A DNA stretch of 64,000 bases from assembly GCF_020782235.1 (NCBI RefSeq), contig NZ_JAJGNO010000002.1:124001-188000 (forward strand), read 5' to 3'. Below the pieces are notes generated by a model, which was given only the letters and a program-made list of their open reading frames with translations, had not been told where the DNA came from and made no database searches. The DNA is from Sphingobium naphthae (GTDB taxonomy: Bacteria; Pseudomonadota; Alphaproteobacteria; Sphingomonadales; Sphingomonadaceae). Below are positions 4 to 23,478 of this stretch, piece after piece. The translations under genes and the position numbers were made by a program. Position 1 is the stretch's first letter, and every line of letters starts with the position of its first letter.

Positions 4-1239
4 ATGCGGCAACTGATCCATAATTGCATGATCTTCGATGGAACGGGCAGCGCGTCCGTCCCGGGCGCCGTCCTGATCGAGGATGACCGGATCGCCGCCA
101 TCCTTCCCGCTGACGCCGCCATCGCGGATATTGAGGCCGACAGCGTCATCGATGGGCAGGGCGCAACGCTGATGCCCGGCATGGTCGACGCGCATACCCA
201 TCTGACCTGGGGCAGCTCGGTCGAGAAAATCTATCACCAGTTCATCCTGCCGCCCGAGGAACTGAAGGTCGCGGCCTGGCGCAACGCCCGTGTGCTGCTC
301 GACCATGGCTTTACCAGCCTCTATTCCGCCGGCGCGCTCAGCGACCGGATCGAACCCGAACTCGCCCGTGCGATCGAAGCGGGTGAAACGCCGGGGCCGC
401 GCTTCATCCCCTCGACCATCGAGCGCAGCCCCGAAGGCGGCGAGGGGGTCGAAACGGGGGATGTCTTCAACGGCCGCGGCCCCGACGCGATGCGCGCCTT
501 CGTCGCCTATTGCGCCGCCGAAGGGGTCAAGTCGCTGAAGCTCGTCATTTCGGGCGAGGACGCGCTCAAGCCCGGCACATCGGGCGACGTCCTCTATACC
601 GACGAGGAAATGGCGGCGGCGGGCAAGGCGGCGCGCGAAGCCGGCCTCTGGATCGCCACCCATGCTTATGCGCCCCGCGCCATCACCCTTGCGCTCGAAG
701 CGGGCGCACGCGTCCTCTATCACTGCTCTTATGCCGACGATGCCGCGATCGACGCGATGGCGGCGAAGAAGGACGAGATTTTCTATGCGCCCGGCCCTGG
801 CGTGTCCGTCGGCGCGCTCGAAGCCAATCCGCCGCCGCACATCGACATGAGCGCCATGAAGGCCAGCGCCGCCGAACGGATCGCGCTCGAAAAGGCGCTC
901 GTCCCCAAATTGAGGGCGCGGGGCGTGCGCATCCTGATCGGCGGCGACTATGGCTTCCCCTTCAACCCCAATGGCCGCAACGCCCGCGATCTGGAGCATT
1001 TCGTCACTCTCTACGGCTATACGCCCGCCGAAGCGCTGAGCGCCGCGACCATGCTGGGCGGCCAGCTGATGGGGTTGGACGTGGGCCAGGTGAAGCCGGG
1101 CTATCTTGCAGACCTGCTGCTGGTGGCGGGCGATCCGACCAGCGACGTGCGCATCCTGCAGGATCGGGACAATATCAAGATGATCATGCTGGGCGGACGG
1201 ATGCACAAATCACCCGCGCCCCAGCCCGTGGCCGCCTGA
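4..1239 (+). CDS. Amidohydrolase, imidazolonepropionase-like
   Basis: A 411-residue metal-dependent hydrolase of the amidohydrolase superfamily that would hydrolyse a C-N or ester/lactone bond in the cytoplasm. The N-terminal beta sandwich is followed by VDAHTHL (metal-binding His64 and His66), further histidines in WIATHAY and VLYHCSY, and an aspartate in IGGDYG, the usual ligand order of a TIM-barrel amidohydrolase. No signal peptide is visible. It is the first gene in the window and lies 16 bases before the ring hydroxylase, so it probably acts on a pathway substrate or product. The operon may begin upstream of the window. The substrate cannot be told from sequence. Confidence 0.85.
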   Translation: MRQLIHNCMIFDGTGSASVPGAVLIEDDRIAAILPADAAIADIEADSVIDGQGATLMPGMVDAHTHLTWGSSVEKIYHQFILPPEELKVAAWRNARVLLDHGFTSLYSAGALSDRIEPELARAIEAGETPGPRFIPSTIERSPEGGEGVETGDVFNGRGPDAMRAFVAYCAAEGVKSLKLVISGEDALKPGTSGDVLYTDEEMAAAGKAAREAGLWIATHAYAPRAITLALEAGARVLYHCSYADDAAIDAMAAKKDEIFYAPGPGVSVGALEANPPPHIDMSAMKASAAERIALEKALVPKLRARGVRILIGGDYGFPFNPNGRNARDLEHFVTLYGYTPAEALSAATMLGGQLMGLDVGQVKPGYLADLLLVAGDPTSDVRILQDRDNIKMIMLGGRMHKSPAPQPVAA

Positions 1240-1255
1240 CGGGAAAGACGCTTCC

Positions 1256-2767
1256 ATGTTCGACGTTGCGATCATCGGCTGCGGGCCGGTGGGGGCCTTT
1301 GCGGCCAATCTCCTTGGAAAATCGGGCCTGTCGGTCCTGGTGATCGAGCAGGAGGCCCATCCCTATCCGCTGCCGCGCGCGGTGCATCTCGACCATGAAA
1401 TGATGCGCCTGTTCCAGTCGGCGGGCGTGATTGATCGCGTCGCCGCGGACATGCGCGACACCGAAGGCCATCTTCATGTCGGCGCGGATCATGGCGTCAT
1501 CCGCTATATGGGCACGGTCGGTCGCGCGCGCCCCTATAGCTGGTCGAACGACTATTTCTTCTACCAGCCCGAACTCGAACAGCATCTGCGCGATGCGCTC
1601 GGCGCCTATCCCCGCCTATCTGTCCGCTTCGGTGTCGGCTTCGAAGGACTGGAGCAGGATGGCGAAACCGTCACGCTGCGCCTGTCCGACGGCGACCGGG
1701 CGCAGGCGCGCTACGTCATTGCCTGCGATGGGGCGCGCAGCGCCGTGCGCAAGGCGCTGGGCATCCGCCTCGACGATCTGGATTTCGAGGAGCCCTGGCT
1801 GGTGGTCGACGCCGAAGTGGATGGACCCGTCCGCTTCCCCGATCTGTGGGGCGTGCCGCCGGAGGCCGACCTGCAGAAATTGTCTGTCATGATGTGCGAT
1901 CCGCGCCGCCCGGCCACGATCGTGCCGGGGCGCGGCAATCACCGCCGCTGGGAATTCATGCTGCTGCCGGGCGAGGACGACCGGGCGATGATGCAGCCCG
2001 ACAAGGTCGCGGCCTTGGTCGAACCCTATCTCTCCGGGGTTCCGCACAAGGTGGTGCGCGCGGCGACCTATCGTTTCCACGGTCTGATCGCCGAGCGGTG
2101 GCGGCAGGGCGGCGTCTTTCTGGCCGGCGATGCCGCGCACCAGACGCCGCCCTTTTTCGGGCAGGGCATGTGCCATGGCCTTCGCGATGTCGCCAATCTG
2201 GCCTGGAAGCTCGAACTGGTGCTGAGCGGCCGCGCGCCGGAGGCGCTGCTCGACAGCTATCAGCACGAGCGCGACCCGCATGTCCGGGCCGTCATCTCCG
2301 CTGCCGTCGGCGCCGGCCGCTATATCTGCATGCTCGATGCCCAGGCTGCCGCCGATCGGGACTCGTCCATGCGCGAAGCGGCGAAGGGTGCGCAGCATGG
2401 CACCGCCGCCGACCTCATCCCGCCGATCGCGGCGGGCATCGTCGCCACCGACATGCCGGGTGCGGGCGAACGCTTCATCCAGCCGCAGGTGGGCGACCGG
2501 CTGCTCGACGATGTGACCGGCGGCGGCTGGCGCCTCTTCACGCCTTGGCCGCTCGCTCGCGATCAGGTCACCCTGATCGATCCCGCCACGCTGGACGATG
2601 GGGGCGCGATCGCCGCTTGGCTGGCCGCGCGCGATGTCGACGCGGTGCTCGTCCGCCCCGATCATTATGTGTTCGGCACCAGCCGCGGCGCACAAGGCGC
2701 TGCCGACCTTGTCGCTCGCCGCGACGCCCTGATCGCCGGAACCACCCCGCAGGAGATTGCCGCATGA
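1256..2767 (+). CDS. FAD-dependent aromatic monooxygenase, MhpA-like
   Basis: A 503-residue class A flavoprotein hydroxylase of the family that includes 3-(3-hydroxyphenyl)propionate hydroxylase. It should hydroxylate a phenolic ring using NAD(P)H and oxygen, preparing it for ring cleavage. Visible motifs are the Rossmann GCGPVG at residues 8-13 with Glu31, the ACDGARS motif for FAD/NAD(P)H binding, and the GD motif FLAGDAAHQ with Asp292. The length is typical, with a C-terminal thioredoxin-like extension. Its TGA overlaps the next start as ATGA, which indicates translational coupling. The neighbouring extradiol dioxygenase and FAH hydrolase support a phenolic substrate. Flavonoid A-ring hydroxylases are a plausible relative, but this is inference. 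Confidence 0.88.
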   Translation: MFDVAIIGCGPVGAFAANLLGKSGLSVLVIEQEAHPYPLPRAVHLDHEMMRLFQSAGVIDRVAADMRDTEGHLHVGADHGVIRYMGTVGRARPYSWSNDYFFYQPELEQHLRDALGAYPRLSVRFGVGFEGLEQDGETVTLRLSDGDRAQARYVIACDGARSAVRKALGIRLDDLDFEEPWLVVDAEVDGPVRFPDLWGVPPEADLQKLSVMMCDPRRPATIVPGRGNHRRWEFMLLPGEDDRAMMQPDKVAALVEPYLSGVPHKVVRAATYRFHGLIAERWRQGGVFLAGDAAHQTPPFFGQGMCHGLRDVANLAWKLELVLSGRAPEALLDSYQHERDPHVRAVISAAVGAGRYICMLDAQAAADRDSSMREAAKGAQHGTAADLIPPIAAGIVATDMPGAGERFIQPQVGDRLLDDVTGGGWRLFTPWPLARDQVTLIDPATLDDGGAIAAWLAARDVDAVLVRPDHYVFGTSRGAQGAADLVARRDALIAGTTPQEIAA

Positions 2768-3204
2768 GCCTCAGCCTCGCCCAGGCGCGCACCATCATTG
2801 ACGCCGCCCTTGCCCAGGGCCGGGCCGAAGGCGCGCAGCCGCTCGCCATCGTCATTCTCGACGCCGGTGCGCATCCCGTGGCCATGATGCGCGAGGATGG
2901 CGCCAGCCTGTTCCGCTTCGACATCGCCAAGGCCAAGGCGGCGGGGGCGCTGGGCATGGGCGCGGACACGCGCATCCTGGCGACGCGCGCCGCCGCCAAC
3001 CCCGTGTTTTTTCAAAGCATCGCAGCCGCCACCGGCCGCCTGGCTCTGTCCCCCGGCGGCGTCCTGATCCGTGACGCCGATGGCGCAACCCGCGGGGCGG
3101 TGATCGGCGCCGTGGGCATCAGCGGCGATACGGGCGACTGCGACGAAGCCTGCGCCATGGCCGGCATCCGCGCGGCCGGTCTTTCCCATGGAGATATGCA
3201 ATGA
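2764..3204 (+). CDS. GlcG/HbpS-like (DUF336) small protein
   Basis: A 146-residue protein with the GlcG/HbpS fold pattern: N-terminal helix (LAQARTIIDAALAQGR), the strand AIVILDAGAHPVAMMRED, SLFRFDIAKAKA, then a glycine-rich GAVGISG segment near the C-terminus. Such proteins occur in many catabolic operons. Some bind haem or cobalamin, but most have no proven reaction. The start is the ATG overlapping the previous stop (ATGA), and its own stop overlaps the next start the same way, so it is an integral operon member. A structural or accessory role for the adjacent oxygenases is inference. Confidence 0.82.
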   Translation: MSLSLAQARTIIDAALAQGRAEGAQPLAIVILDAGAHPVAMMREDGASLFRFDIAKAKAAGALGMGADTRILATRAAANPVFFQSIAAATGRLALSPGGVLIRDADGATRGAVIGAVGISGDTGDCDEACAMAGIRAAGLSHGDMQ

Positions 3205-4109
3205 AACTGCGCAGCATAGAACTGGCGCTGCCCCATGCCGGGGAAGCCGCGGCGTTCCTGACCGACATCTGGGGCATGGCGCCTGCGGGCGTCGAGGGCG
3301 ACACGCATTATCTGCGTGGATCGGGCGGCTTCCCCTATCTGGTCGGGCTGGCGGAATCGGCGGACGCCCATGTCCGCTCCACCACCTTCGTCTGCTCGGC
3401 CGAGCGACTGGAAACGCTCAAGCGCAGCGTCGCCGCTGCTGGCCTCCCCGCCACGCCGACTGTTTCGCAGGATCCGGGCGGCGGGCATGGCATCATCGTC
3501 GAACTGGCCGAAGGCGAATTGCTGCGCTTCCTCACCGATGCGCAGGATGTCGCGCCGATCGAGGGCCGGGACCTGCCAGTCAAGCTCACGCACGTTGTCT
3601 TCAACAGCGCCGACGCCGAGGCGACCGGGGATCTGGCGGAACGGGCGCTGGGCTTCCGCGTATCGGACCGGACCAAGGGCATGGTCTTCGTGCGCTGCAA
3701 CGACTCCCATCACAGCACTGCCTTTGCCCGCGCGGGCTTCGCTTCGCTCAATCACATCGCCTTTGAAATGGCGGACATGGACGCGGTGATGCGCGGCATC
3801 GGTCGTCTGCGCGACCAGAATATGGCGCCGGCATGGGGCCCCGGCCGCCATGGCCCCGGCGCCAATGTGTTCGCCTATTTCATTGCCCCCTTCGGCCCCG
3901 TCATCGAATTTTCCACTGCCGTGGAAAAGGTGCCGGAGGATTATCAGCCCGGCGCGCCAGAGGATTGGACCTGGCCCGAAGGCCGGATCGACCAATGGGG
4001 CATGTCCGACAAGGATTTCGCCGGCCTGCGCGCCGCCGAAGAGAAGTTCCGCCATCGCCGCGACTGGGAGCCCCAGCCGCTGGACATCCTGTCAGAGGAA
4101 AATCACTAA
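3201..4109 (+). CDS. VOC-superfamily extradiol-type ring-cleavage dioxygenase
   Basis: A 302-residue protein with two VOC modules, as in type I extradiol dioxygenases. The C-terminal module carries the expected Fe(II) ligands: His131 (KLTHVVF), His185 (LNHIAFEM) and Glu236 (VIEFST). It should open a catechol-like ring next to the diol produced by the upstream hydroxylase. The C-terminal tail is rich in Trp and acidic residues. Start and stop overlap both neighbours (ATGA upstream, TAATG downstream). Its position between a hydroxylase and an FAH hydrolase is the classical meta-cleavage order. The exact aromatic substrate is unknown. Confidence 0.85.
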   Translation: MKLRSIELALPHAGEAAAFLTDIWGMAPAGVEGDTHYLRGSGGFPYLVGLAESADAHVRSTTFVCSAERLETLKRSVAAAGLPATPTVSQDPGGGHGIIVELAEGELLRFLTDAQDVAPIEGRDLPVKLTHVVFNSADAEATGDLAERALGFRVSDRTKGMVFVRCNDSHHSTAFARAGFASLNHIAFEMADMDAVMRGIGRLRDQNMAPAWGPGRHGPGANVFAYFIAPFGPVIEFSTAVEKVPEDYQPGAPEDWTWPEGRIDQWGMSDKDFAGLRAAEEKFRHRRDWEPQPLDILSEENH

Positions 4110-4939
4110 TGCGTTATGTCAGCTTCCGCCGCCCGGACGGCACGCCCAGCTTCGGCCGCCTGGATGGCGAAACGATCGTCGAACTGGCGACCGACGCGAC
4201 ACTCAGCCTCAAGGCCGCGCTGACCGACGGCAGCCTGGCGACGCTGCCGGACGGCGCATCCTTCGCCGCCGCCGACATTGTCCTGCTGCCGGTCATTCCC
4301 GACCCCGCCAAGATCCTGTGCGTCGGCCTCAACTATGCCGAGCATGTCAAGGAAACCGGCCGCGAGCAGAAGGCGCATCCGGCTATTTTCGTGCGCTATG
4401 CGGACAGTCTGGTCGCCGATGGCCAGCCGATGGTGAAGCCGGCCGTGACCGATCGCTTCGACTATGAAGGGGAACTGGCGATCATCATCGGCAAGGCCGC
4501 GCACAAGGTGGCAGCAGCCGACGCCTGGTCCTATGTCGCGGGCTATGCCGCCTTCAACGACGGCAGCGCGCGCGACTGGCAGCGGCACAATATCCAGTTC
4601 ACGCCGGGCAAGACCTTTCCGGGTACGGGCGGCTTCGGCCCTGCGCTGGTGACGCCCGACGAGGTCGGGGACTTGGCCGCCCTGCGCGTCCAGACCCGCC
4701 TCAACGGGGAGATGGTGCAGGACCAGCCGGTCAGCGACATGATCTGGGATATTCCCACGGTGATCGAATATGTCAGCGCCTTCACCCCGCTCAGCCCCGG
4801 CGACGTCATCGCCACGGGTACGCCGGGCGGCGTCGGCGACAAGCGCAATCCGCCGCTTTACATGAAGGCGGGGGACAAGGTGGAAGTAACCATCGGCGCC
4901 GTCGGCACGCTCACCAACCGCATCATCGACGAACAATGA
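4109..4939 (+). CDS. Fumarylacetoacetate hydrolase family protein
   Basis: A 276-residue FAH-family enzyme expected to cleave a C-C bond of, or decarboxylate or isomerise, the ring-fission product. Family signatures are KILCVGLNYAEHVKE, the metal-binding DYEGELAIIIGK, and the GDVIATGTPGGVG loop near the C-terminus. The start is the ATG in TAATG overlapping the dioxygenase stop; a longer in-frame reading beginning at 3833 lies inside the dioxygenase gene and is not used. It completes a hydroxylase, dioxygenase, hydrolase series. A TonB receptor follows after 36 bases. Confidence 0.9.
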   Translation: MRYVSFRRPDGTPSFGRLDGETIVELATDATLSLKAALTDGSLATLPDGASFAAADIVLLPVIPDPAKILCVGLNYAEHVKETGREQKAHPAIFVRYADSLVADGQPMVKPAVTDRFDYEGELAIIIGKAAHKVAAADAWSYVAGYAAFNDGSARDWQRHNIQFTPGKTFPGTGGFGPALVTPDEVGDLAALRVQTRLNGEMVQDQPVSDMIWDIPTVIEYVSAFTPLSPGDVIATGTPGGVGDKRNPPLYMKAGDKVEVTIGAVGTLTNRIIDEQ

Positions 4940-4975
4940 CATCAACCCGAACATAAGAAGGGGAGAGGAATAATC

Positions 4976-7306
4976 ATGCGTAAGTTCATTTCGATCACTG
5001 CGCTGGCGGGAGCGAGCGTCCTCGCACTGGCTGCGCCCGCCGCGGCGCAGGATGCCGCGCCGCAGGACGCAGCGGAAACCCCGGCTGCGTCCGGCGTGGG
5101 CGCCGACATCGTCGTCACCGCGACCCGCCGCGCGGAACGCCTGCAGGATGTGCCGATTGCTGTGTCGGCCATCGGCGGCGATCAGCTGGCGGAAAGCGGC
5201 TTCCAGCGGCTGACCGACATCCAATATCAGTTTTCCGGGGTGCAGTTCGGCACGTCGCCCAATGACAGCGGCTTCCGCTTGCGCGGCGTCGGCACGGCAG
5301 GCGGCTTTTCCAGTTCGTCCGAACAGAATGTCGGCACCGTGGTCGACAATGTCGTCATCCCCTTCGGCAATCCGATCAACAGCCTGGGCGATCTGGAACG
5401 AGTCGAGGTGCTGAAAGGACCGCAAGGCACCCAGTTCGGCAAGAACGCCTCGTCGGGCGTTGTCAACATAACGACCAAGAAGCCGACATTCGACGCCATT
5501 GGCGGCAAGGTCTTCGCCTCCTATGGCGAACTGAATGAAGTCAACGTCAACGGCAATATCAACCTGCCGCTCAGCGCCAATAGCGCGCTCGGCGTCTTCG
5601 GTTTCTATCGCCGCAATGATGGGTTTCTCTACAACGCCACGCTGGACAAGGATTGGGGCGGGGAGGAAAGCTATGGCGCGCGCGCGAAATTGCTTTTCGA
5701 GCCGAGCGACACGCTCAGCATCTATCTGATCGGCGACTATTCCAAGATCGACCGCACGGGCCCGGGCCAGCTTTGGACGATCGCGCGTCTGCCCAGCTTC
5801 GCCAATCCGCTGATGGCGGCCCGCTTCGGCAATCTCGCTTCGCTGGGCATCGTGCCGGGCTTCGACAATAGCAAGTCGGCCGAGGAATATGAAAGCTATA
5901 CCAGCGAGCAGAATTACGGCGCATCGCTCGAGGTCAATCTGGGCCTGGGCGATTACAACCTGACCTCGATCACGGCCTGGCGTCGGTTGGACGAAGGGGA
6001 CCAGCGCTTCGCCATCGACGGCAGCAGCGTCCCTGTATTCACATCGCAGCAGACCGGCGTCGATCAGACATTTCTGTCGCAGGAACTGCGTATCACCTCG
6101 CCGGCGGGCAGCGCGCTCGAATTCACGTCGGGCGTCTACGGGTCCCGCCGCAAGGTCGGCGACGACAATGATTTCAACAAGTCGCAGCTTCGCCCGGCAG
6201 CGCCGTTCAACCCGTTCATCGTCAATATTTCAGGTGGACAGAGCAATACGCAGACCCGCTCTGACTCGCTTGCGGCCTTCTTCGACGGCAAGTTCAACGT
6301 CAGCGAACAGTTCGCGGTCATCGGCGGCCTGCGCTACCAATATGACTGGGTGAAATCGTCCAGCTTCTCGATCATCGACCCCGCCTATCCGCCGAGCCCT
6401 CCGGGGCCGCCGGTGGCCGGACAAGTCAACTATTACGAGCCCCGCCCGCTCGCCGAAGGATCGACGAAGAAGGGGGACTGGTCAGGACGCTTCGGCTTCC
6501 AGTTCAAGCCCGACCGGGATCTCATGCTCTATGGGACGATCGCGCGCGGCTATCTGGGACCGACGGTCACTTTTTCGGGGCTGACCGGACAGAAGGTCGA
6601 TGTGGGTCCACAGACGGTGCGCGACATCACTTTCGGCGTGAAGTCGCAGCTGTTCGACCGGGCCGTGACGCTCAACGCCAATATCTTCTTCGACAAATAT
6701 AATAATCTGCAGACATCGGTCTTCAATGGCCTGGAGTTCCTGACCGAAAATGCCGGTGGCTTCGAAGCCAACGGGTTCGAGATTGAAGGCTCCTGGCGCA
6801 TCAGCCCGGTCTTCTCGCTCAACGCCTCCTTCACCTATTCGGATACGAAGTTCACCGACTATGTGACGGCCTGCCCCGATGTCGTGAAGAGCGGCTACAC
6901 CTGCTATCTTGCCGAAGACGGTACCACCAGCCTGGTGCAGGCGGCCGGCGAGCCGCTCTCGGGTGCGCCCAAATATAGCGCGACCGCGGGCGCGGACGTA
7001 CGGCTGCCGATCAACGACAGGCTGACGTTCGACAGTTCTGCCAACTTCTATTATCGCAGCCGGGTGCAATATGCCGCGGTCCAAGCCTATACGTCGCAAC
7101 CGGGCTATGGGACGATCGGCCTCAACGCCGGTATCGGCCATCCGGATGGCAATTGGCGGATCGGCCTGTTCGCGCGCAATCTGCTCGACCAGCGTTTCCA
7201 TTCGTCGGTGATCGGCCTGCCGTTCAGCGATCCGGGCGGCCGCGTCAATTGGTTGACGCGCGAGGGGCGCCGCACGCTCGGCATATCGGCCGAAATGCGC
7301 TTCTGA
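4976..7306 (+). CDS. TonB-dependent outer-membrane receptor (aromatic cluster)
   Basis: A 776-residue receptor. A signal peptide (residues 1 to about 24, ending AAAAQ) precedes an ADIVVTATRRAERLQDVP plug-entry region, a plug domain with FRLRGVGTAG and LERVEVLKGPQGTQFGKNAS, and a 22-strand-type barrel ending in the aromatic EMRF. It would import a substrate across the outer membrane using TonB/ExbBD energy. No SusD-like partner is present, as expected for proteobacteria. It has a strong ribosome site (ggggagagg) and lies 36 bases after the FAH gene, so its substrate is probably the compound degraded by the upstream operon. A hairpin follows. Confidence 0.93.
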   Translation: MRKFISITALAGASVLALAAPAAAQDAAPQDAAETPAASGVGADIVVTATRRAERLQDVPIAVSAIGGDQLAESGFQRLTDIQYQFSGVQFGTSPNDSGFRLRGVGTAGGFSSSSEQNVGTVVDNVVIPFGNPINSLGDLERVEVLKGPQGTQFGKNASSGVVNITTKKPTFDAIGGKVFASYGELNEVNVNGNINLPLSANSALGVFGFYRRNDGFLYNATLDKDWGGEESYGARAKLLFEPSDTLSIYLIGDYSKIDRTGPGQLWTIARLPSFANPLMAARFGNLASLGIVPGFDNSKSAEEYESYTSEQNYGASLEVNLGLGDYNLTSITAWRRLDEGDQRFAIDGSSVPVFTSQQTGVDQTFLSQELRITSPAGSALEFTSGVYGSRRKVGDDNDFNKSQLRPAAPFNPFIVNISGGQSNTQTRSDSLAAFFDGKFNVSEQFAVIGGLRYQYDWVKSSSFSIIDPAYPPSPPGPPVAGQVNYYEPRPLAEGSTKKGDWSGRFGFQFKPDRDLMLYGTIARGYLGPTVTFSGLTGQKVDVGPQTVRDITFGVKSQLFDRAVTLNANIFFDKYNNLQTSVFNGLEFLTENAGGFEANGFEIEGSWRISPVFSLNASFTYSDTKFTDYVTACPDVVKSGYTCYLAEDGTTSLVQAAGEPLSGAPKYSATAGADVRLPINDRLTFDSSANFYYRSRVQYAAVQAYTSQPGYGTIGLNAGIGHPDGNWRIGLFARNLLDQRFHSSVIGLPFSDPGGRVNWLTREGRRTLGISAEMRF

Positions 7307-7314
7307 TGGATCCC

Positions 7315-7341
7315 GGGGGCGAACCTTCATGGTTCGTCCCC
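7315..7341 (+). terminator. Hairpin after the TonB receptor gene
   Basis: GGGGGCGAACC (7315-7325) pairs with GGTTCGTCCCC (7331-7341) across a 5-base loop, with a single G-U wobble. It starts 9 bases after the receptor stop. No T-run follows, so it may be a factor-dependent terminator, an attenuator or an mRNA-stabilising end rather than a classical intrinsic terminator. Confidence 0.5.
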
Positions 7342-7370
7342 GAACAGCAAGCATGAGGTAGGAGAGACGA

Positions 7371-8354
7371 ATGGCTGTAAGAAGCGGTTTGCTGTTGACG
7401 GCGCTTATCGTCTGTCTGGCCGGTGCCGCGCCGGCCCGCGCGGCAGCCTGTTCCGCGATGCGGTGGACGACGCTGGGGACGGCGGGCGGCCCGGTTCCGA
7501 CGGCGGACCGGGCGGAGCCATCCAATCTGCTGGTCGCCGGCGACCAGCAGATCCTGGTCGATACAGGCGATGGCACTGTCAACCAGCTTGCCGGGCTGGG
7601 CATGGACATGCGGCGCATCCGCACCGTCTTCATCAGCCATCTTCATCTGGATCATAGCGGCGGACTGGCTGCGGTTATTGGCCTACGCTGGATGAACCAG
7701 TTTCCCGGCCAACTGACCATCTATGGACCGCCCGGCATCAGGGAGGTGGTGGATGGCATCATCGCTTCTATGGCTCCCCCGGCACGGATCGGCTTCGGCC
7801 TCGGCACGCCGCCTCCCGGCGCTGGCGCATCCGTTCGGGCAGTCGAATTGCGGGGTGGCCAGATCGTGCCGCTTGGTGACGGCCTCACCGCGACGGCAGC
7901 GGCGAACAGCCACTTCGATCATGATGGGAAGCCCGACCCCTCAAACATCTCGTTCAGCTACCGCTTCGCGCTGGGCGATCGCAGCATCACCTATACAGGC
8001 GACACGGGCCCCAGCGATGCCGTCACTCGCCTGGCGTCAGGCACGGACATGCTGGTCAGCGAAGTCATCGATCTCGACCGGCTTCTAAAGGAGATCAAGC
8101 AGCGGCGCATCGACGCGCCATTGGAGATGTTAGCCGCAATGCAAAGACATCTGTCGACCCATCATCTTCTGCCAGTCGACGTCGGCGTCCTGGCGGCCGA
8201 GGCGAAGGTCGGCCGGGTCCTTCTTACTCATTTCGCCGTGCCCGGCCCCTTGAGCGAATCCGAACCGGCCCTGCGCGCCGGGATCGGCAAAAAGTTCAGC
8301 GGCCCGGTCGACCTCGCGCGTGATCTTTCCAGCTTCGATCTGGGCTGCCCATGA
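7371..8354 (+). CDS. Secreted metallo-beta-lactamase-fold hydrolase
   Basis: A 327-residue MBL-fold protein with a signal peptide (cleavage likely near ARA-AAC, residues 24-27). The dinuclear zinc motif HLHLDH is at residues 90-95, followed by a histidine in ANSHFDHDG, the bridging aspartate in TYTGDTGPSD and a late histidine in LLTHFAVPG. It should hydrolyse an ester, lactone or similar bond in the periplasm. The ribosome site is ggtaggagag. Its stop overlaps the next start (ATGA). It opens the esterase/glycosidase operon, so action on a glycosylated or lactone-containing phenolic is reasonable but unproven. Confidence 0.85.
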   Translation: MAVRSGLLLTALIVCLAGAAPARAAACSAMRWTTLGTAGGPVPTADRAEPSNLLVAGDQQILVDTGDGTVNQLAGLGMDMRRIRTVFISHLHLDHSGGLAAVIGLRWMNQFPGQLTIYGPPGIREVVDGIIASMAPPARIGFGLGTPPPGAGASVRAVELRGGQIVPLGDGLTATAAANSHFDHDGKPDPSNISFSYRFALGDRSITYTGDTGPSDAVTRLASGTDMLVSEVIDLDRLLKEIKQRRIDAPLEMLAAMQRHLSTHHLLPVDVGVLAAEAKVGRVLLTHFAVPGPLSESEPALRAGIGKKFSGPVDLARDLSSFDLGCP

Positions 8355-9196
8355 CTCGGTCGGCAATCCAAGCGATGGGCTTCGAGCTTGGGCCTGAGAT
8401 ACTCGAACAGTGCCGCGCCTTGTTCGACGCGGAACAACAGGTTTTGGCCGAGCGAATGCCCGTGTCCCAGGCCGATGTTCCTTATGGCCCGGAGGCGCGG
8501 CACCGGCTGGACCTCTATCGGCCAGAAGGCGGCGACAATGCTGCGCCGGTTCTCGTCTTCGTCCATGGCGGGGGGTTTCTGAAGGGGGACAAGGGCGGAG
8601 CGGATGCCTGGCCCAACGCCAATGTCGGGCGCATGGCCGCGCAGGCCGGCTTTCTGGGCGTCGTCATCAACTATCGGCTCGCCCCGGACCATGCCTGGCC
8701 GGCGGGGGCGGAGGACGTGGCGGCGGTCGTCGCCTGGCTGCGGGCGCATGCCGCCGATCATGGCGGCGATGCCGATCGCATCGTGCTGGCGGGAACATCG
8801 GCAGGCGCCGTGCATGTCGCGGGCTATCTCGGCCGGTCGGGCGACCGCGACATTCGCGCCGCCATCCTGCTCTCGGGCCTCTATGGCTACACCCCGCTCG
8901 ATGCGCGCGACATGCTCTATTATGGTGAGCCTGCGCTGTACCCCGATCGCATGCCAATGGAAGCGGTCGCCGCGACCAGCCTGCCGCTGCTCGTCGCCTG
9001 CGCGCAGTTCGACCCGCTCCGGTTCCAGGCGGAGTTTCTGGGCCTGATGCAGGACCGGCTCGCCCGCTATGGGACTATGCCGCGCGCGCTGATCCTTCCG
9101 GGCCATAATCATTACTCCATGCCCATGCATCTGGGCACTGCCGACCGGCGGCTCGCCGACGAAATCTGCGCCTTCGTGCGCGACACCACTGGCTGA
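8351..9196 (+). CDS. Alpha/beta hydrolase (HSL/BD-FAE-like esterase)
   Basis: A 281-residue carboxylesterase-type hydrolase. It shows the oxyanion motif VFVHGGGF (residues 70-76), a nucleophile elbow GTSAG with Ser150, Asp221 in AQFDPLRF and His252 or His254 in PGHNHYSM. No signal peptide is obvious, so it is probably cytoplasmic. The fold type resembles arylformamidase-like and bifunctional acetyl/feruloyl esterases. Coupled to the MBL gene by an ATGA overlap, it likely removes an acyl group from a plant-derived glycoside. Confidence 0.85.
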   Translation: MTRSAIQAMGFELGPEILEQCRALFDAEQQVLAERMPVSQADVPYGPEARHRLDLYRPEGGDNAAPVLVFVHGGGFLKGDKGGADAWPNANVGRMAAQAGFLGVVINYRLAPDHAWPAGAEDVAAVVAWLRAHAADHGGDADRIVLAGTSAGAVHVAGYLGRSGDRDIRAAILLSGLYGYTPLDARDMLYYGEPALYPDRMPMEAVAATSLPLLVACAQFDPLRFQAEFLGLMQDRLARYGTMPRALILPGHNHYSMPMHLGTADRRLADEICAFVRDTTG

Positions 9197-9223
9197 CGAA
9201 CATAAGAGAAGAGAGGGACTATC

Positions 9224-10528
9224 ATGCTGGATCGCCGCACCTTGTTAGCGACCGCCGCCGCGTTGATGGCTACGCCGGCGGCCGCCGCGCGCAAGCCGAC
9301 AAACCCTAAATTCCCCGAAGCTTTCCTGTGGGGCGCGGCCACGGCGCCGCACCAGATCGAGGGCAATAATATCGCGAGCGACCTGTGGTGGCTGGAAAAC
9401 CAGCAACCCACCATCTTCGCCCAGCCGTCGGGCGATGCCTGCAACAGCTTCGAATTGTGGGAAGCCGATCTCGACATCGTCAAGGCCATGGGCCTCAACT
9501 GCTATCGGTTCGGCATTGAATGGGCGCGGATCGAGCCGGAGAAGGGCCTCTTCAGCCAGGCGATGCTGGATCATTACAAGGCGGTGATCGACGGGTGCCG
9601 CGCGCGGGGGCTCACTCCGATCGTGACCTACAGCCACTTCACTGCCCCCCGCTGGTTCAGCGCCCAAGGCGGCTGGACCAATCCGGAAAGCGCGTCCCTC
9701 TTCGCGCGCTATTGCGACAAGGCGACGCGGGCGCTGGGGCAGGGAATCGACCGGGTCATCACCCTCAACGAACCCAATATCCTGCTGCTGCTCAAGCCCA
9801 TGCTGCCGCCCAAGGTCTGGGACATCCAGAAGCTGACGCTGGAAACCGCCGCGCGGCGGCTTGGCGTCGATCGGTTCGTCAGCGCCAATGTCGCTGGCCT
9901 GGACGATCTTCCCGCGCTTCAGTCCGGCCTGCTCGCCGCGCACAAGGCAGGCAAAGCGGCGATCAAGGCCGTGCGTTCCGATCTGCCGGTCGGCTTTTCG
10001 CTGGCGATGATGGACGATCAGGCAGTGGGCAAGGCGTCGGTTCGCGACCGGATGCGCCGCGAACTCTATGGGGAGTGGCTGGAACTGGCCAAAGCCGACG
10101 ATTTCATCGGCGTCCAGAATTATGAGCGCGCGCTCTGGGGCGACAAGGGCCGGCTGCCGGCGCCCAGCGGCGCGACCGTGAACTGGTCCGGCTCGGAAGT
10201 CTGGGGGCCTTCGCTGGGTGGTGCGGTCCGCTATGCCCATGAAGCGACCGGCGTACCCATCCTCGTGTCGGAACATGGCGTTGGCACGGACGATGATGCG
10301 ATCCGCGCCCGCTTCATTCCCGAAGCCTTGGCGGGGCTCAAGGCGGCGATGGATGATGGCGTGCCGGTGCTGGGCTATTGCCACTGGTCGCTGCTCGACA
10401 ATTTCGAGTGGATCTTTGGCTACAAGCCCAAATTCGGCCTCGTCAGCGTCGATCCGCAAAGCTTCGCCCGCACGCCCAAGCCCAGCGCCGCCATCTATGG
10501 CGCGATCGCGCGCCGCAACGCGCTGTAA
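9224..10528 (+). CDS. Glycoside hydrolase family 1 enzyme
   Basis: A 434-residue GH1 beta-glycosidase with a short N-terminal signal-like segment (residues 1-22). It has the family start FPEAFLWGAATAPHQIEG and the acid/base motif TLNEP (Glu183). The nucleophile should be Glu350, but the usual TENG appears as VSEHG. The late GH1 signature HWSLLDNFEW is intact. The altered residue after the nucleophile may signal a special aglycone or specificity. It follows two hydrolases and precedes an esterase and a rhamnosidase, which fits release of glucose from a disaccharide-bearing phenolic. The ribosome site gagaggg supports this start. Confidence 0.88.
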   Translation: MLDRRTLLATAAALMATPAAAARKPTNPKFPEAFLWGAATAPHQIEGNNIASDLWWLENQQPTIFAQPSGDACNSFELWEADLDIVKAMGLNCYRFGIEWARIEPEKGLFSQAMLDHYKAVIDGCRARGLTPIVTYSHFTAPRWFSAQGGWTNPESASLFARYCDKATRALGQGIDRVITLNEPNILLLLKPMLPPKVWDIQKLTLETAARRLGVDRFVSANVAGLDDLPALQSGLLAAHKAGKAAIKAVRSDLPVGFSLAMMDDQAVGKASVRDRMRRELYGEWLELAKADDFIGVQNYERALWGDKGRLPAPSGATVNWSGSEVWGPSLGGAVRYAHEATGVPILVSEHGVGTDDDAIRARFIPEALAGLKAAMDDGVPVLGYCHWSLLDNFEWIFGYKPKFGLVSVDPQSFARTPKPSAAIYGAIARRNAL

Positions 10529-10540
10529 GGAGGCAACCTC

Positions 10541-11449
10541 ATGAAGCGTCTGTCTTTCATCCTGTTGCCGCTGCTCGCATCACCTGCCGCCGCTCAGATG
10601 CCGCCACCCGTCCATGCCCAGGCTCCGGCAGAGCCGAATGCCATTCCCCTCTACCCCGACATGAAGGCGCCGAAGGGGACGACGGAAAACTGGGTCCGCT
10701 TCGGCGAAGATCTGGCTGTCCGCAACGTCACCGTGCCGACCCTGACGCCGGTGCTGCCTGATCCTGCCAAGGCGACCGGCGCGGCGGTGATCGTCGCTCC
10801 GGGCGGGGCCTTCATGATGCTGGCGATGCAGCATGAAGGCTGGAACGTCGCGCGGTGGCTGGCGGATCATGGCGTCACTGCCTTCGTGCTCAAATACCGC
10901 CTCAACCAGACGCCGGCCGACGATCAGGAAGCCGCCGCCTATATGGGCCAGCGCATCGCCGCTTCGCTGCGCGACCCCAGTGCGGCGCCCGCCATCACCG
11001 AGCCGCGCGCCACGCTCGACGCTCTGGCTGCGCTCAAGCTGGTGCGGGGCGGCGCAGACAAATGGGGCATCGATCCGCAGCGCGTAGGCATGATCGGCTT
11101 TTCCGCCGGCGCCATGACCACGCTGAACGCTGCGCTGGAGGGCAAGGGGGCCGATCGTCCCTCCTTCATCGGCTATGTCTATGGGCCGATGCTGGCGCGC
11201 GACGTGCCCGGGGGTGCGCCTCCGATGTTCGCGGCCATCGCCAATGACGACAGCCTGTTCCCCAATCCCTCCTATGCGCTCGTGGAAAGCTGGCGGCGCG
11301 CCAGGGTGCCCGTCGAACTCCACGCCTATGAGCGTGGCGATCATGGCTTTGGCACGGGAAAGCCCGGCACCACCAGCATGGGAGTGTTGCCGCAGTTCCT
11401 GTCCTGGCTGGACATGCACGGCTTGCTGCAAAGGTCGTCGGGGCAGTGA
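10541..11449 (+). CDS. Secreted alpha/beta hydrolase (carbohydrate esterase-like)
   Basis: A 302-residue esterase with signal peptide (residues 1-19, ASPAAAQ). It has the oxyanion segment IVAPGGAFMML, nucleophile elbow GFSAG (Ser188), Asp236 or Asp237 in ANDDSLF and His268 in RGDHGFG. This arrangement is typical of acetyl-xylan-esterase-like proteins found in glycan loci. It likely deacylates sugars in the periplasm before glycosidases act. A strong aaggagg ribosome site lies before the ATG. The following gene starts in a GTGA overlap. Confidence 0.87.
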   Translation: MKRLSFILLPLLASPAAAQMPPPVHAQAPAEPNAIPLYPDMKAPKGTTENWVRFGEDLAVRNVTVPTLTPVLPDPAKATGAAVIVAPGGAFMMLAMQHEGWNVARWLADHGVTAFVLKYRLNQTPADDQEAAAYMGQRIAASLRDPSAAPAITEPRATLDALAALKLVRGGADKWGIDPQRVGMIGFSAGAMTTLNAALEGKGADRPSFIGYVYGPMLARDVPGGAPPMFAAIANDDSLFPNPSYALVESWRRARVPVELHAYERGDHGFGTGKPGTTSMGVLPQFLSWLDMHGLLQRSSGQ

Positions 11450-11901
11450 CCGCCGCCGCTTCGATCCGGCGGGAAGCGGCGATCAGCTTCGCCATCAACG
11501 CCGCGCTCAGCCTTGCCTTCTTCCTCGGCCTCTACGGCTTCACGCCCCGCGCGCTCCGCTGGACGGCGCCTGACGGACTGGCGCTGGATTTCGTTCCCCA
11601 GAGCCTGGCCGTGGCGTTGATGAGCGCGCTGGTGCCCGCACTCATCGCCTGCAGGCGGCTCCGCAACGGGCCTCCCCTGCGCCCGATCCTGCTGCGCGCC
11701 GGCCTGTTCGCGATTGCCGGAGCCTGCCTCGGCGCGTTGTTGGCCCGTGTGGCCAGCGGAGCAGAACTGCCGGCCATTGCCTGGAGCACGGCGCTGGCCG
11801 GCAAGATGCTCTATGGCGGCGTGCTTGGCGCTCTGGTCGCCACGCTCGCGCTCCGGCCGTTGCTGGCGACTGCTACCGTTTCAACAAGAAAGATGCATTG
11901 A
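11446..11901 (+). CDS. Small integral membrane protein of unknown function
   Basis: A 151-residue hydrophobic protein with about four predicted membrane segments (around residues 13-30, 50-68, 82-100 and 112-140) separated by short basic loops. I do not recognise a family. The start is a GTG whose GTGA overlaps the stop of the esterase, and its stop overlaps the rhamnosidase ATG (TGATG), so it is translated as part of the operon. A role in transport or envelope anchoring for the rhamnoside system is inference. Confidence 0.7.
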   Translation: MTAAASIRREAAISFAINAALSLAFFLGLYGFTPRALRWTAPDGLALDFVPQSLAVALMSALVPALIACRRLRNGPPLRPILLRAGLFAIAGACLGALLARVASGAELPAIAWSTALAGKMLYGGVLGALVATLALRPLLATATVSTRKMH

Positions 11902-14900
11902 TGACTCGCCACAGCCTGCGCTTCGCCGCTCTGCTCGCCTGCACCCTGCTTAGCGGTCCGGCGCTTGCCGACGATCTGGCCGACGGCTTTCGCAATCCCC
12001 CGCAATCGGCGCGTCCGCGCGTCTGGTGGCATTGGATGAACGGCAATGTGACGAAGGACGGGATCGACAAGGATCTCGACTGGATGGCGCGAATCGGCAT
12101 TGGCGGCGTGCAGAATTTCGACGCCAATCTCCAGACGCCGCAGATCGTGCCCGAGCGGCTGACCTATATGACCGATGGCTGGAAGGACGCCTTCGGCCAT
12201 GCGGTGCGCACCGCCGACGCCAAGGGACTCGAATTCGCCATCGCCGCCTCGCCGGGCTGGAGCGAGACGGGCGGCCCCTGGGTCAAGCCGGAGGATGGTA
12301 TGAAGAAGCTGGTCTGGAGCGAGACGGACCTGCGGGGCGGCGCCCGCCTGACCGGTCCCTTGCCTCCGCCGCCTTCGGTGACGGGCCCGTTCCAGAGCGC
12401 CAGGTTCAGCGATCCGCTGGCCGGTGGCGAAGAAAGCGGCCCGCTGCCGCACCATTATGCCGATGCGCGCGTCCTCGCCTATCCCGTCAGCCTCAGGCCC
12501 TTGCCGCAGCCGCGCGTGACGCAGCGGGATGGCAGCGCCGTCGTGGCCGCGCCCCTGTTCGATCAGGATCTCGACACCGTGGCGCAGGTCAGCAAGGGCG
12601 ATGAGAGTGCGCCGGGCGCGCTGCTGCTCGATTATGGCAAGCCCGTCACCATCCGATCGGCCAGCCTGTTCGTGCCGCATGCCCGCCCGCCCTTCGGCGA
12701 CCCGGCCTACCGCCCGACCCTGGAGGCACAAACGCCGCAAGGTTGGCGGCCCATCGGTCGCTTCACCCTGACCGAAGTGGCCTCGACGATCAGCTTCGCA
12801 CCGGTCACGGCCCAGCGCTTTCGCTTGGTCCTGTCCGCCAATGACGCGCCCAAATCGCCCAGCTTGGGCGACGGCGCCCCCGGCGCGGTGCAGATCGACG
12901 TCTTCGCCCGACCCGCCAGCGCCACGCTGGGCATTGGCGACTTCCGTCTGTCGGCCGAAGCGAAGATCGACCAATATGAAGCCAAGGCGGGCTATGCGAT
13001 CCTGCCCGATTACACCGCGCTCGGCGGCGTCACCGCCACCGCACCTGCGATCGATCCCGCCAGCGTGATCGACCTGACCGACCGTTTGCGGCCGGACGGC
13101 ACGCTCGACTGGACGGCGCCCGCAGGCAGCGACTGGCATATCCTGCGCATGGGCTATTCGCTCACGGGCAAGACCAACCATCCCGCCACGCCCGAAGCGA
13201 CCGGCCTTGAAGTCGACAAATATGATGCCGGCGCCGTGCGCCGCTATCTGGAAACCTATCTTGGCATGTATCGCGATGCCGTCGGCGCGGACTGGATCGG
13301 CAAGAAGGGGATCAACGCGCTGCTGACCGACAGCATCGAAGTCGGCGCTTCCAACTGGACGCCGCGCATGGTCGAGGAATTCAAGGCCAGGCGCGGCTAT
13401 GACCCGGTGCCCTATCTGCCCACGCTGACCGGCGCGGTGGTGGGTTCGGCGGCCCGAAGCGATGCTTTCCTTCACGACTATCGCCAGACGCTGGCGGACC
13501 TCCTCGCCGACGCCCATTATGGCACGATCGCGAAAGTGGCGCATGAAAATGGCCTGATCCTGTATGGCGAAGCGCTGGAAAATGCGCGGCCCGTGCTGGG
13601 CGATGATCTTGCCATGCGCGCCCATGCCGATGTGCCCATGGGGGCGATGTGGACCTTCAACCGGGGCACCGCGCCGCGTCCCACGCTGATCGGCGACATG
13701 AAAGGAGCAGCGTCGGTCGCTCATATTTACGGCCAGAATATCGTGTCGGCCGAATCCATGACGTCGGCCTTTGCACCCTGGGCGTTTGCGCCTGCGGACC
13801 TCAAGCGCGTCATTGATCTGGAATTTGCGTCCGGGGTCAATCGGCCGATCGTCCATACGTCCGTGCACCAACCGGTCGATGACAAGCAGCCGGGTCTCAG
13901 CCTGATGATCTTCGGTCAATATTTCAATCGGCATGAAAGCTGGGCGGAAATGGCCAAGCCCTGGGTCGACTATATGGCGCGCACCGGCTTCCTGCTGCAG
14001 CAGGGGCGGGATCATGCCGACGTTGCTTATTTCTATGGCGAGGATCAGCCGATCACATCGCTGTTCGAACACGGCGTGCCGGCGGACCTGCCCACGCGCT
14101 ACGCTTATGATTTCGTCAATGCGGACATCGTGGCGAACCGGATGCGGGTCGAAAAGGGCGAACTGGTCGCCGGCGAGGCGCGCTACAAGGCGCTGTATCT
14201 TGGCGGGTCGAGCCGTGTTATGACGCTTGGCACGCTCCAGCGCATCGCCGCTCTGGTCGAACGGGGGGCGACGGTCATCGGCATGGCGCCGGAGCGCTCG
14301 CCAGCCCTTCAGGACGACCCCGCCGCTTTCCAGGCGCTCGTACGTCGATTGTGGGGCGGCGCTCCGCATGGCAAGGGGCGCGTAATCGCCAGCCAGCAGG
14401 TCGAGGCGGCGCTGGCGCAAACCGGCACCGGTCCCGATTTCCGCATCAGCGCCGGCGCATCCGATGCGGACTATCGTTTTGTCCATCGCAAGCTCGCCGG
14501 TGGCGACCTGTATTTCGTGAACAACCGCACCACCGACAGCGGCCGCATCGAAGCGCACTTCCGCGTGACCGGCAAGCGTCCCGAAATTTGGCGCGCGATG
14601 GACGGTAGGACGGCGCCGCTTTCCTACCGGGTCGAAGGATCGGAAACGGTCGTGCCGATCGACGTGGGAGCGGAGGACGCTTTCTTCATCCTCTTCCGCG
14701 CCGATGCGGATGCGCCTTCGGCAACGCTGCCCCAAGCGCAGCCACGTCAGCTGACGCGGCTCGACAGCCCCTGGACCGTGCAGTTCCAGCCAGGCCGCGG
14801 CGCGCCGGCGCGGATAGACATGCCGGCGCTGACGCCGCTTGACAGCAGTGCGGACAAGGGGGTGCGCTATTTCTCCGGCGTCGCGACCTACACCACGCGT

Positions 14901-15227
14901 TTCACCTTGCCGCACGGCGTCAAGGCTGGCGATCCGCTCTCCATCGACCTTGGACAGATTGGCGACGTGGCGGAGGTGCGCGTCAACGGGCAGCTTGCCG
15001 GCACCAGCTGGTTTGCGCCGTATCGGCTCGACATCGGCAAGCTGGTGAAGCCCGGCGCCAACATGCTTGAGGTGAAGGTCGCCAATCTGTGGGTCAACCG
15101 CCTGATCGGCGATCAGCAGCCGGATGCTGAGAAGATCAGCTTCACGGCCGCCCCGACCTACCGCCCCGATGCGCCCTTGCGGCCCTCGGGGCTGATCGGA
15201 CCAGTCACCCTCTGGACGCAGGACTGA
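11901..15227 (+). CDS. Alpha-L-rhamnosidase, glycoside hydrolase family 106
   Basis: A 1108-residue secreted enzyme that should remove terminal L-rhamnose from plant glycosides or glycans. A signal peptide (about residues 1-23) is followed by the GH106 hallmark PRVWWHWMNGNVT near residue 40 and LDWMARIGIGGVQ. Further in, DSIEVG carries Glu480, a candidate catalytic or calcium-site acid, and GEALEN lies near 557. The C-terminal beta domain (VEVRVNGQLAGTSW) resembles a sugar-binding jelly roll. The start is the ATG in the TGATG overlap; the TTG at 11898 is a track artefact. The length is normal for the family. It is the operon's likely key specificity determinant. Confidence 0.9.
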   Translation: MTRHSLRFAALLACTLLSGPALADDLADGFRNPPQSARPRVWWHWMNGNVTKDGIDKDLDWMARIGIGGVQNFDANLQTPQIVPERLTYMTDGWKDAFGHAVRTADAKGLEFAIAASPGWSETGGPWVKPEDGMKKLVWSETDLRGGARLTGPLPPPPSVTGPFQSARFSDPLAGGEESGPLPHHYADARVLAYPVSLRPLPQPRVTQRDGSAVVAAPLFDQDLDTVAQVSKGDESAPGALLLDYGKPVTIRSASLFVPHARPPFGDPAYRPTLEAQTPQGWRPIGRFTLTEVASTISFAPVTAQRFRLVLSANDAPKSPSLGDGAPGAVQIDVFARPASATLGIGDFRLSAEAKIDQYEAKAGYAILPDYTALGGVTATAPAIDPASVIDLTDRLRPDGTLDWTAPAGSDWHILRMGYSLTGKTNHPATPEATGLEVDKYDAGAVRRYLETYLGMYRDAVGADWIGKKGINALLTDSIEVGASNWTPRMVEEFKARRGYDPVPYLPTLTGAVVGSAARSDAFLHDYRQTLADLLADAHYGTIAKVAHENGLILYGEALENARPVLGDDLAMRAHADVPMGAMWTFNRGTAPRPTLIGDMKGAASVAHIYGQNIVSAESMTSAFAPWAFAPADLKRVIDLEFASGVNRPIVHTSVHQPVDDKQPGLSLMIFGQYFNRHESWAEMAKPWVDYMARTGFLLQQGRDHADVAYFYGEDQPITSLFEHGVPADLPTRYAYDFVNADIVANRMRVEKGELVAGEARYKALYLGGSSRVMTLGTLQRIAALVERGATVIGMAPERSPALQDDPAAFQALVRRLWGGAPHGKGRVIASQQVEAALAQTGTGPDFRISAGASDADYRFVHRKLAGGDLYFVNNRTTDSGRIEAHFRVTGKRPEIWRAMDGRTAPLSYRVEGSETVVPIDVGAEDAFFILFRADADAPSATLPQAQPRQLTRLDSPWTVQFQPGRGAPARIDMPALTPLDSSADKGVRYFSGVATYTTRFTLPHGVKAGDPLSIDLGQIGDVAEVRVNGQLAGTSWFAPYRLDIGKLVKPGANMLEVKVANLWVNRLIGDQQPDAEKISFTAAPTYRPDAPLRPSGLIGPVTLWTQD

Positions 15228-15277
15228 CGCGCGCCGGCGTCAGCCGCACCGGGATCGTTATGCAGTCGGAACTTTCT

Positions 15278-15304
15278 CTCCAGCAGCGCGCTTCGCTGCT
15301 GGAG
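15278..15304 (+). promoter_or_regulatory. Inverted repeat enclosing the ku ribosome site
   Basis: CTCCAGCAGC (15278-15287) and GCTGCTGGAG (15295-15304) form a perfect 10-bp stem with a 7-base loop. The 3' arm contains most of the ggagg ribosome site that lies 7 bases before the ku ATG, so folding would hide it. A GGAAC at 15268 with CGCT 16 bases later weakly resembles an alphaproteobacterial EcfG (general stress) promoter. If that promoter were used, the transcript would start inside the repeat and lack the 5' arm. Both readings are inference. Confidence 0.5.
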
Positions 15305-15312
15305 GTTCGTCC

Positions 15313-16215: not shown

Positions 16216-16219
16216 TCCC

Positions 16220-19203: not shown

Positions 19204-19211
19204 CAATTTGC

Positions 19212-19230
19212 GACCAGTGGCGGGCTGGTC
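19212..19230 (+). repeat. Short inverted repeat after ligD
   Basis: GACCAG (19212-19217) and CTGGTC (19225-19230) form a 6-bp stem with a 7-base loop, 9 bases after the ligD stop. There is no T-run. It may be a weak terminator or part of the promoter region of the next gene; nothing else stands out in the 108-base spacer. Confidence 0.3.
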
Positions 19231-19311
19231 ATGCAACTTCAGGACCAGATCGGGATTTTACCGCGCAGGCGCGTTGGGGGGCGTCGCCTGCTGCTGGAAG
19301 AGGATCATCGC

Positions 19312-20400: not shown

Positions 20401-20410
20401 GGGAGCACGC

Positions 20411-23470: not shown

Positions 23471-23478
23471 GGATCGCC

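Follow-up and report, generated by a model that had tools for sequence, protein, structure and literature searches.

The locus and the question it raises

The 64,000-nucleotide stretch of Sphingobium naphthae DNA analysed here (contig NZ_JAJGNO010000002.1, positions 124,001 to 188,000, called the window below) begins with an island of genes in which predicted ring-cleaving enzymes stand next to predicted glycosidases, and the question that it raises is whether these two halves form one catabolic system and what substrate it would serve. A first-pass annotation of the sequence had proposed one system that imports a rhamnosylated phenolic, strips off its sugars and cleaves the ring, and this proposal is supported by the co-occurrence of the two halves in other genomes, by synteny with a locus of Novosphingobium sp. 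PP1Y and by a quercetinase gene in a sister form of the island. Judging from these sequence comparisons, the twelve genes are probably a single catabolic operon, linked to a LysR regulator, for rhamnoglucosides of plant flavonoids. The genes, taken from reading-frame calls and from Pfam and NCBIfam profile scans, are all on the + strand and span positions 4-15227 of the window. They are listed below with the LysR gene upstream.

G000:C22:123024-123920, outside the window, + strand: LysR regulator, 83 bp upstream of the amidohydrolase gene
4..1239, + strand: amidohydrolase with a subtype-I metal site, 411 aa (PF01979, 100 bits, cut-off 25)
1256..2767, + strand: FAD-dependent aromatic hydroxylase, MhpA-like, 503 aa (PF01494; NF004829, 482.2 bits, cut-off 390)
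2764..3204, + strand: HbpS/GlcG-like protein (HbpS), 146 aa (PF03928, 97 bits, cut-off 25)
3201..4109, + strand: type I extradiol ring-cleavage dioxygenase (EDO), 302 aa (PF00903)
4109..4939, + strand: FAH-family hydrolase, HpcE/acylpyruvase-like, 276 aa (PF01557, scored on the longer reading frame 3833-4939)
4976..7306, + strand: TonB-dependent receptor, 776 aa (PF00593 and PF07715)
7371..8354, + strand: metallo-beta-lactamase-fold (MBL) hydrolase (PF12706; signal-like N-terminus by eye)
8351..9196, + strand: Esterase 1, feruloyl-esterase-like (nearest 4zrs; no signal peptide by eye)
9224..10528, + strand: GH1 beta-glycosidase, 434 aa (PF00232, 190 bits, cut-off 22.6; Tat-like signal by eye)
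10541..11449, + strand: Esterase 2 (PF07859, 42 bits, cut-off 25; signal-like N-terminus by eye)
11446..11901, + strand: small hydrophobic protein that by eye would cross the membrane about four times (without a match in Pfam or NCBIfam)
11901..15227, + strand: GH106 alpha-L-rhamnosidase, 1108 aa (PF17132, 1021 bits, cut-off 29; predicted secreted, signal by eye)

The reading frames and profiles agree with the first-pass annotation that the genes it listed lie on one strand, and every gene that it named was found, but it had overlooked the amidohydrolase gene at 4-1239, the HbpS-like gene, the gene of the small hydrophobic protein and the upstream LysR gene. Neighbouring genes overlap by 1-4 bp or are separated by gaps of at most 64 bp, the packing that one transcription unit would show (the gap listing used 4106 and 11898 as starts, while FAH and GH106 have their ATG at 4109 and 11901). 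When the island was scanned for consensus promoters and terminators there was no excess, with 3 and 8 sites compared to 2.2 and 8.2 in shuffled sequences; an Rfam scan gave no match at gathering scores and a tRNA search found none.

Linkage of the two halves in Sphingobium and its family

When 94 genomes of the genus were examined, with orthologues taken at 78% identity or more for the hydroxylase and 71% or more for GH106, both orthologues were found together in 39 genomes, one alone in none and neither in 55. Fisher's exact test, which ignores relatedness, gives 2e-27 for this distribution. In 36 of these 39 genomes the two genes are on one contig at a distance of 6.6-9.1 kb, in one they are at opposite ends of a contig and in two they are on separate contigs. 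Among the 55 non-carriers, 45 had no match at E 1e-100; in 8 the only matches were GH106 relatives at 58% or less, and in 2 the sole match was a hydroxylase relative at 43-44%. The two halves thus go together in this genus, as the first-pass annotation had supposed, and they also recur together in other genera. Rare co-occurrence in relatives, which that annotation had named as a result that would refute its proposal, was not what was found.

In a family sample of 119 genomes that takes in the window genome itself, three others (G025, G029 and G045) have a close hydroxylase orthologue (69-70%). All three have a GH106 at E ≤1e-60, which was found in 10 of 118 family genomes, and GH106 was present in 7 of the 115 genomes without a hydroxylase orthologue. 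The gene order in G029 and G045 is kept, being LysR, hydroxylase, HbpS (in G029), FAH, receptor, Esterase 1, GH1 and Esterase 2. In G025, whose assembly is in about 380 contigs, the genes for the amidohydrolase and the hydroxylase are at a contig end and GH106 is on another contig.

Occurrence of the island in other genomes

A scan of 84,980 species genomes gave 129 confirmed loci, of which 80 were analysed. They are mostly from Sphingobium, Novosphingobium and Sphingomonas, and also from Caulobacter, Niveispirillum, Aurantiacibacter and marine gammaproteobacteria. The gene caller, which was trained on GC-rich sequence, missed many marine gammaproteobacterial genes and hence a tblastn table was used for the locus counts. 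In 67 of the 80 loci the context was full, with 8 kb or more of sequence before the hydroxylase and 9 kb or more after it, and in these, at set identity thresholds, FAH was found in 66, EDO and HbpS in 62 each, Esterase 1 in 61, the amidohydrolase in 58, LysR in 57, GH1 in 56, GH106 in 39, the small hydrophobic protein in 31, Esterase 2 in 27, the orthologous receptor in 25, MBL in 11 and quercetinase in 5. Out of all 80 loci, HbpS was present in 74, Esterase 1 in 71, the small hydrophobic protein in 34, Esterase 2 in 29 and MBL in 13.

GH106 is inside the locus in 45 of 78 genomes (two locus pairs share an assembly), and in 23 of the 31 searched genomes that lack it there a GH106 was found at another site with E 1e-60, in one case just a 36% relative. 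Altogether, GH106 is somewhere in 68 of the 76 carrier genomes examined. The genus result is cleaner than the contrast between these carriers (68/76) and the family (7/115) because the two samples differ in taxonomy.

The receptor is swapped between relatives. A TonB receptor directly follows FAH in 54 loci, where it is orthologous in 23 (52-92% identity) and non-orthologous in 31 (24-31%), a count that omits 11 loci where FAH had no usable call and 15 where it is followed by another gene; in Sphingobium the genes on either side of the swapped receptors remain very similar. MBL was found at 60% or more in nine loci, eight with the orthologous receptor and one without a receptor match, and by this count MBL seems to accompany the orthologous receptor.

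Evidence for a flavonoid substrate

The substrate class is suggested by three observations, namely, synteny with the PP1Y rhamnosidase locus, the quercetinase in the sister form and the rhamnose catabolism genes beside some of the loci and in the window genome. On the PP1Y megaplasmid Mpl, a rhamnose transporter-like gene, a lactate dehydrogenase gene and a kinase-like gene are on the other strand, and then come genes for a rhamnulose-phosphate aldolase-like protein, Esterase 2, a rhamnose isomerase-like protein, GH106, LysR, amidohydrolase, hydroxylase, HbpS, EDO, FAH, receptor, MBL, Esterase 1 and GH1. Of the rhamnose gene names, the dehydrogenase was scored directly, the aldolase, isomerase and transporter were named by resemblance to scored relatives, and the kinase, which has no NCBIfam match, was named by eye. 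Two of three tested 100-residue stretches of the plasmid GH106 are identical to those of 6q2f and the third is outside the called frame, and therefore, as far as tested, this gene appears to encode the 6q2f protein, which we take to be the protein called RHA-P. The RHA-P locus is like the window in having GH106 (56% identical) in a row with the genes from LysR through GH1. It differs in that rhamnose isomerase-type genes are in the locus and GH106 is upstream, whereas in the window GH106 is last and an Lra-type set is elsewhere in the genome. According to PMC6710449, the cloned PP1Y rhamnosidase acts on naringin, rutin and neohesperidin dihydrochalcone.

In the sister form the place of the amidohydrolase and its EDO is taken by a bicupin quercetinase and an EDO of another kind. 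This form was seen in six of the 80 loci, all from Sphingomonas (one of them, L131, is on the same contig as the locus of G029), and in addition in G045, a Croceibacterium. The quercetinase matches the QdoI/YxaG structures at about 1e-39 (2h0v, 1.3e-39), and the G045 plasmid record annotates the gene as quercetin 2,3-dioxygenase family. Among the 119 family genomes only G029 and G045, which both have the sister form, gave strong quercetinase matches, and six others gave weak matches of 4e-5 to 1e-3. The amidohydrolase, a core gene of what we call the type-A island (68 of 80 loci), and quercetinase (6 of 80) were never in one locus, and 6 of 80 loci, some of them cut short, had neither. In the hydroxylase tree (76 rows; this tree and the FAH tree lack several marine gammaproteobacterial loci) the sister form is one clade (97/84). 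Three of the six sister loci carry an extra protein, presumably decarboxylase-like, for which Pfam gives only periplasmic-binding-type matches.

The individual enzymes and a proposed route

Residue conservation was counted in alignments of the window protein and up to 60 homologues for each gene (for EDO 60 of 67 were taken). The EDO has the 2-His-1-Glu metal site in a VOC fold that defines type I, and His131, His185 and Glu236, which the first-pass annotation had read correctly, are identical in 61 of 61 aligned sequences. Its nearest solved structure is 3b59. Since no NCBIfam equivalog cut-off was reached (best 59.7 bits compared to 320) its substrate is not named here. In the amidohydrolase, H64, H66, K179, H220, H240 and D315 are identical in all the 59-61 sequences with a residue at these positions. 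The best solved relatives of FAH are 6j57, 8sky and 1gtt, and such relatives act on 2,4-diketo acids. Esterase 1 is closest both by sequence and by fold to 4zrs, a cloned feruloyl esterase (38% identity, TMq 0.89, with a predicted local distance difference test score, pLDDT, of 92.9 for the model), and the NCBIfam AcxylEst and PaeX matches of Esterase 2 are far under their cut-offs. GH1, whose nearest solved structure is 4r27, keeps E183 (in NEP) and E350 (in SEHG), presumably the acid/base and the nucleophile, respectively, in 61 of 61 aligned sequences. GH106 matches 6q2f near full length (residues 25-1104) at 56% identity, and because of this relation to the PP1Y enzyme we infer that it would act on flavonoid rhamnosides. 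Its E618 aligns with E593 of BT_0986, which is the catalytic base as given in PMC6828813. By eye, the N-termini of GH106, GH1, Esterase 2 and MBL are signal-like and those of Esterase 1, the amidohydrolase and HbpS are not. The small hydrophobic protein may possibly belong to a transporter of the aglycone or of sugars.

What the sequences show is the gene content, the packing on one strand, the linkage across the genus, the synteny with the PP1Y locus, the mutual exclusion of amidohydrolase and quercetinase loci and the presence of rhamnose catabolism genes. From these data a route can be proposed, of which all the reactions, their locations and the phloroglucinol ring itself are what we infer. 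The TonB receptor would import the flavonoid glycoside and, in the periplasm, GH106 would take off rhamnose, GH1 glucose and Esterase 2 acyl groups. The aglycone would then enter the cytoplasm, where the amidohydrolase (window form) or quercetinase (sister form) would open it and Esterase 1 would hydrolyse an aromatic ester. The product of quercetinase is a depside, an aromatic ester, and a cytoplasmic ester of this kind suits the modelled, feruloyl-esterase-like Esterase 1. The FAD hydroxylase would put a hydroxyl on a phloroglucinol-type ring, EDO would cleave the ring and the FAH hydrolase would split the resulting 2,4-diketo acid. The freed rhamnose would go to the Lra-type pathway encoded on another contig of the window genome (L148, C2:54001-74000), where Lra1, L-rhamnonate dehydratase, Lra6 and RhaT score over their cut-offs and a lactonase-like gene scores below its own; a search of the window genome for rhamnose isomerase gave none. 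At least 14 of the 80 loci have rhamnose catabolism genes at their flanks (representatives were scored, the rest assigned by clustering or by eye), and this count may be low owing to the missed gammaproteobacterial genes.

As closely related hydroxylases and FAH hydrolases work behind both front ends, the simplest common substrate would be a ring product that the two have in common, such as phloroglucinol or its carboxylate, but we hold the phloroglucinol step to be somewhat short of an even chance. A bolder version is tentative and rather unlikely. It is that the hydroxylase, EDO and FAH constitute an undescribed aerobic phloroglucinol pathway with exchangeable front ends, these being either quercetinase with a depside esterase or the amidohydrolase as a new flavonoid-opening hydrolase. 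Such a pathway would run from phloroglucinol to 1,2,3,5-tetrahydroxybenzene, then to a 2,4-dioxoadipate-type acid and from there to pyruvate and malonate.

Alternative explanations

Several results weigh against a single flavonoid operon or against parts of the route. In 11 of the 67 full-context loci the hydroxylase and EDO are without a nearby GH1 or GH106 (FAH is present in 10 of these 11), and in 7 of the 11 genomes with such ring-only loci no GH106 was found anywhere at E 1e-60, which means that the ring module is also found without the sugar module. These loci fit the idea of a shared ring product, yet they show that the modules can separate. Up to five candidates per genome were scored in the genus test and up to six in the family sample, and a few of the absences could be misses. 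The quercetin 2,3-dioxygenase (QdoI/YxaG bicupin) route, present in the sister form, was not found in the window genome, which has no bicupin quercetinase at E 0.001 although the query finds relatives elsewhere, and two fde-neighbour proteins (fde is the naringenin cluster of Herbaspirillum) have no close homologue in it, the matches being a HisD-like one at 37% and a flavoprotein at 27%. For these reasons the amidohydrolase is an unproven candidate for opening the aglycone. Its predicted fold (pLDDT 85.2) is nearest to Xaa-Pro dipeptidase, arginine carboxypeptidase and ochratoxinase at 22-27% identity, and these solved relatives are peptidases and amide hydrolases. In the FAH tree the sister form is not one clade and needs two changes rather than one, and because of this disagreement the single-clade reading is that of the hydroxylase tree. 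A relative of the window GH1 prefers sophorose, and E561 of BT_0986 aligns with alanine in both the window GH106 and 6q2f.

The ring-only loci, together with the GH106 genes in family genomes without the hydroxylase orthologue, would also be expected if two unrelated operons, one for phenol cleavage and the other with a rhamnosidase for polysaccharides or saponins, happened to be adjacent; PMC10653915 describes a GH106 from a tomato-root Sphingobium that acts on steroidal saponins. However, the 39 of 39 linkage in the genus, the packing on one strand with gaps of 64 bp or less and the finding of the same genes together in varied orders, for instance with GH106 upstream in Novosphingobium, make chance adjacency very improbable. 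Somewhat less remote, but still improbable, is that the operon serves another phenolic rhamnoglucoside, for example a phenylethanoid glycoside such as acteoside, which carries rhamnose, glucose and a caffeoyl ester. A feruloyl-esterase-like enzyme with GH1 and GH106 in one operon and a hydroxylase of the MhpA-like subfamily would suit such a compound. The sister-form quercetinase and the context of the PP1Y rhamnosidase speak for flavonoids instead, and Esterase 1, having no signal peptide by eye, should not act on an imported glycoside in the periplasm.

Within the flavonoid rhamnoglucoside class itself, the order of events may be different, and as this is a variant of the preferred reading the likelihoods given here do not sum to one. 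The hydroxylase could act on the intact aglycone and EDO cleave ring A, with the amidohydrolase opening a later pyrone or other intermediate. According to PMC8552027 and PMC11069340, FdeED and IfcA hydroxylate C8 of intact flavonoids and the A ring is then cleaved, and fde-like genes adjoin homologues of this operon in Novosphingobium aromaticivorans and Massilia. On the other hand, the window hydroxylase is just 27% identical to the fde-like hydroxylase of Massilia, which has both sets side by side, and close relatives of the hydroxylase and FAH are found beside a quercetinase that opens the C ring, where the aglycone should already be opened. We regard this order as unlikely, though well ahead of the other substrates considered above. 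It was also considered that FAH is not a ring-cleavage enzyme but the 2,4-diketo-3-deoxy-L-rhamnonate hydrolase of the rhamnose pathway, as it scores 156-157 bits to NF053535 and has 8gsr among its solved relatives. This was rejected as extremely unlikely since 157 bits is far under the cut-off of 500, a true member with 543 bits is encoded next to Lra1 and the dehydratase at a different place in the genome, and FAH is kept where a locus has genes for rhamnose isomerase and aldolase.

Neighbouring genes in the window

Genes for Ku and LigD (non-homologous end joining) are at 15313-19203 on the + strand, 85 bp past GH106, and were taken to be outside the island. A second sugar island at 51994-64000 has genes for GH1, alpha-L-fucosidase, a GDSL esterase, an IclR regulator and a receptor-like protein, and it continues past the window (L137) with lactonase-, aldo/keto reductase-, dehydratase- and mutarotase-like genes, named by eye. 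This second island probably serves fucoside use.

Significance and comparison with known flavonoid clusters

Flavonoid glycosides are common plant phenolics. If the preferred reading of one flavonoid rhamnoglucoside operon is true, it would explain the purpose of the well-studied PP1Y rhamnosidase, it would mean that sphingomonads have a sugar-to-ring route in one operon, and it would give a direct genetic handle on how the flavonoid skeleton is broken down aerobically, a process for which the papers cited here name fde and ifc. The amidohydrolase and the small membrane protein are candidates worth assaying. Literature searches of open-licence PubMed Central that were aimed at the island, its enzymes or its route showed no description of the island among the papers listed (for one of them the first 15 of 1,829).

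The first-pass annotation had drawn an analogy to the fde cluster, and it is right as to the kinds of enzymes, an FAD hydroxylase and an extradiol dioxygenase being common to both (as is an FAH-type hydrolase, according to that annotation). The analogy does not extend to descent, as the window hydroxylase is not an orthologue of the fde-like one and no homologue of the Rieske protein was found in the window at the thresholds used. For this comparison a set from Massilia putida (L140) was the proxy for Herbaspirillum; it is called fde-like from its gene kinds, which are an FAD hydroxylase, a Rieske protein, a VOC protein, HisD, a short-chain dehydrogenase/reductase (SDR) and FAH. The Massilia set adjoins homologues of the operon, namely, a hydroxylase (41%), FAH (45%), EDO (51%, to the sister type) and HbpS (50%), and on pNL2 of N. 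aromaticivorans (13126-30656, L141) a related fde-like set adjoins the genes from the amidohydrolase to Esterase 1. Proteins of fde-like neighbour sets were also found in 6 of the 80 loci (L094, L101, L112, L119, L120 and L121), mostly one or two in each. The fde-like sets and the operon are thus distinct modules that are sometimes together, which makes the flavonoid reading stronger and simple homology to fde weaker. At another locus (L042 in G103) a GH106 (53% identical) is near an fde/ifc-like set of HisD, FAH, cupin and SDR and not near this operon. Finally, the island can be likened, by gene kinds and not by sequence, to the ifc isoflavone cluster of Variovorax, as described in PMC11069340. 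That cluster has a cupin of the IfcD type, of which there is none among the twelve genes of the island, and in both an FAD hydroxylase and a glyoxalase-type dioxygenase are found together.

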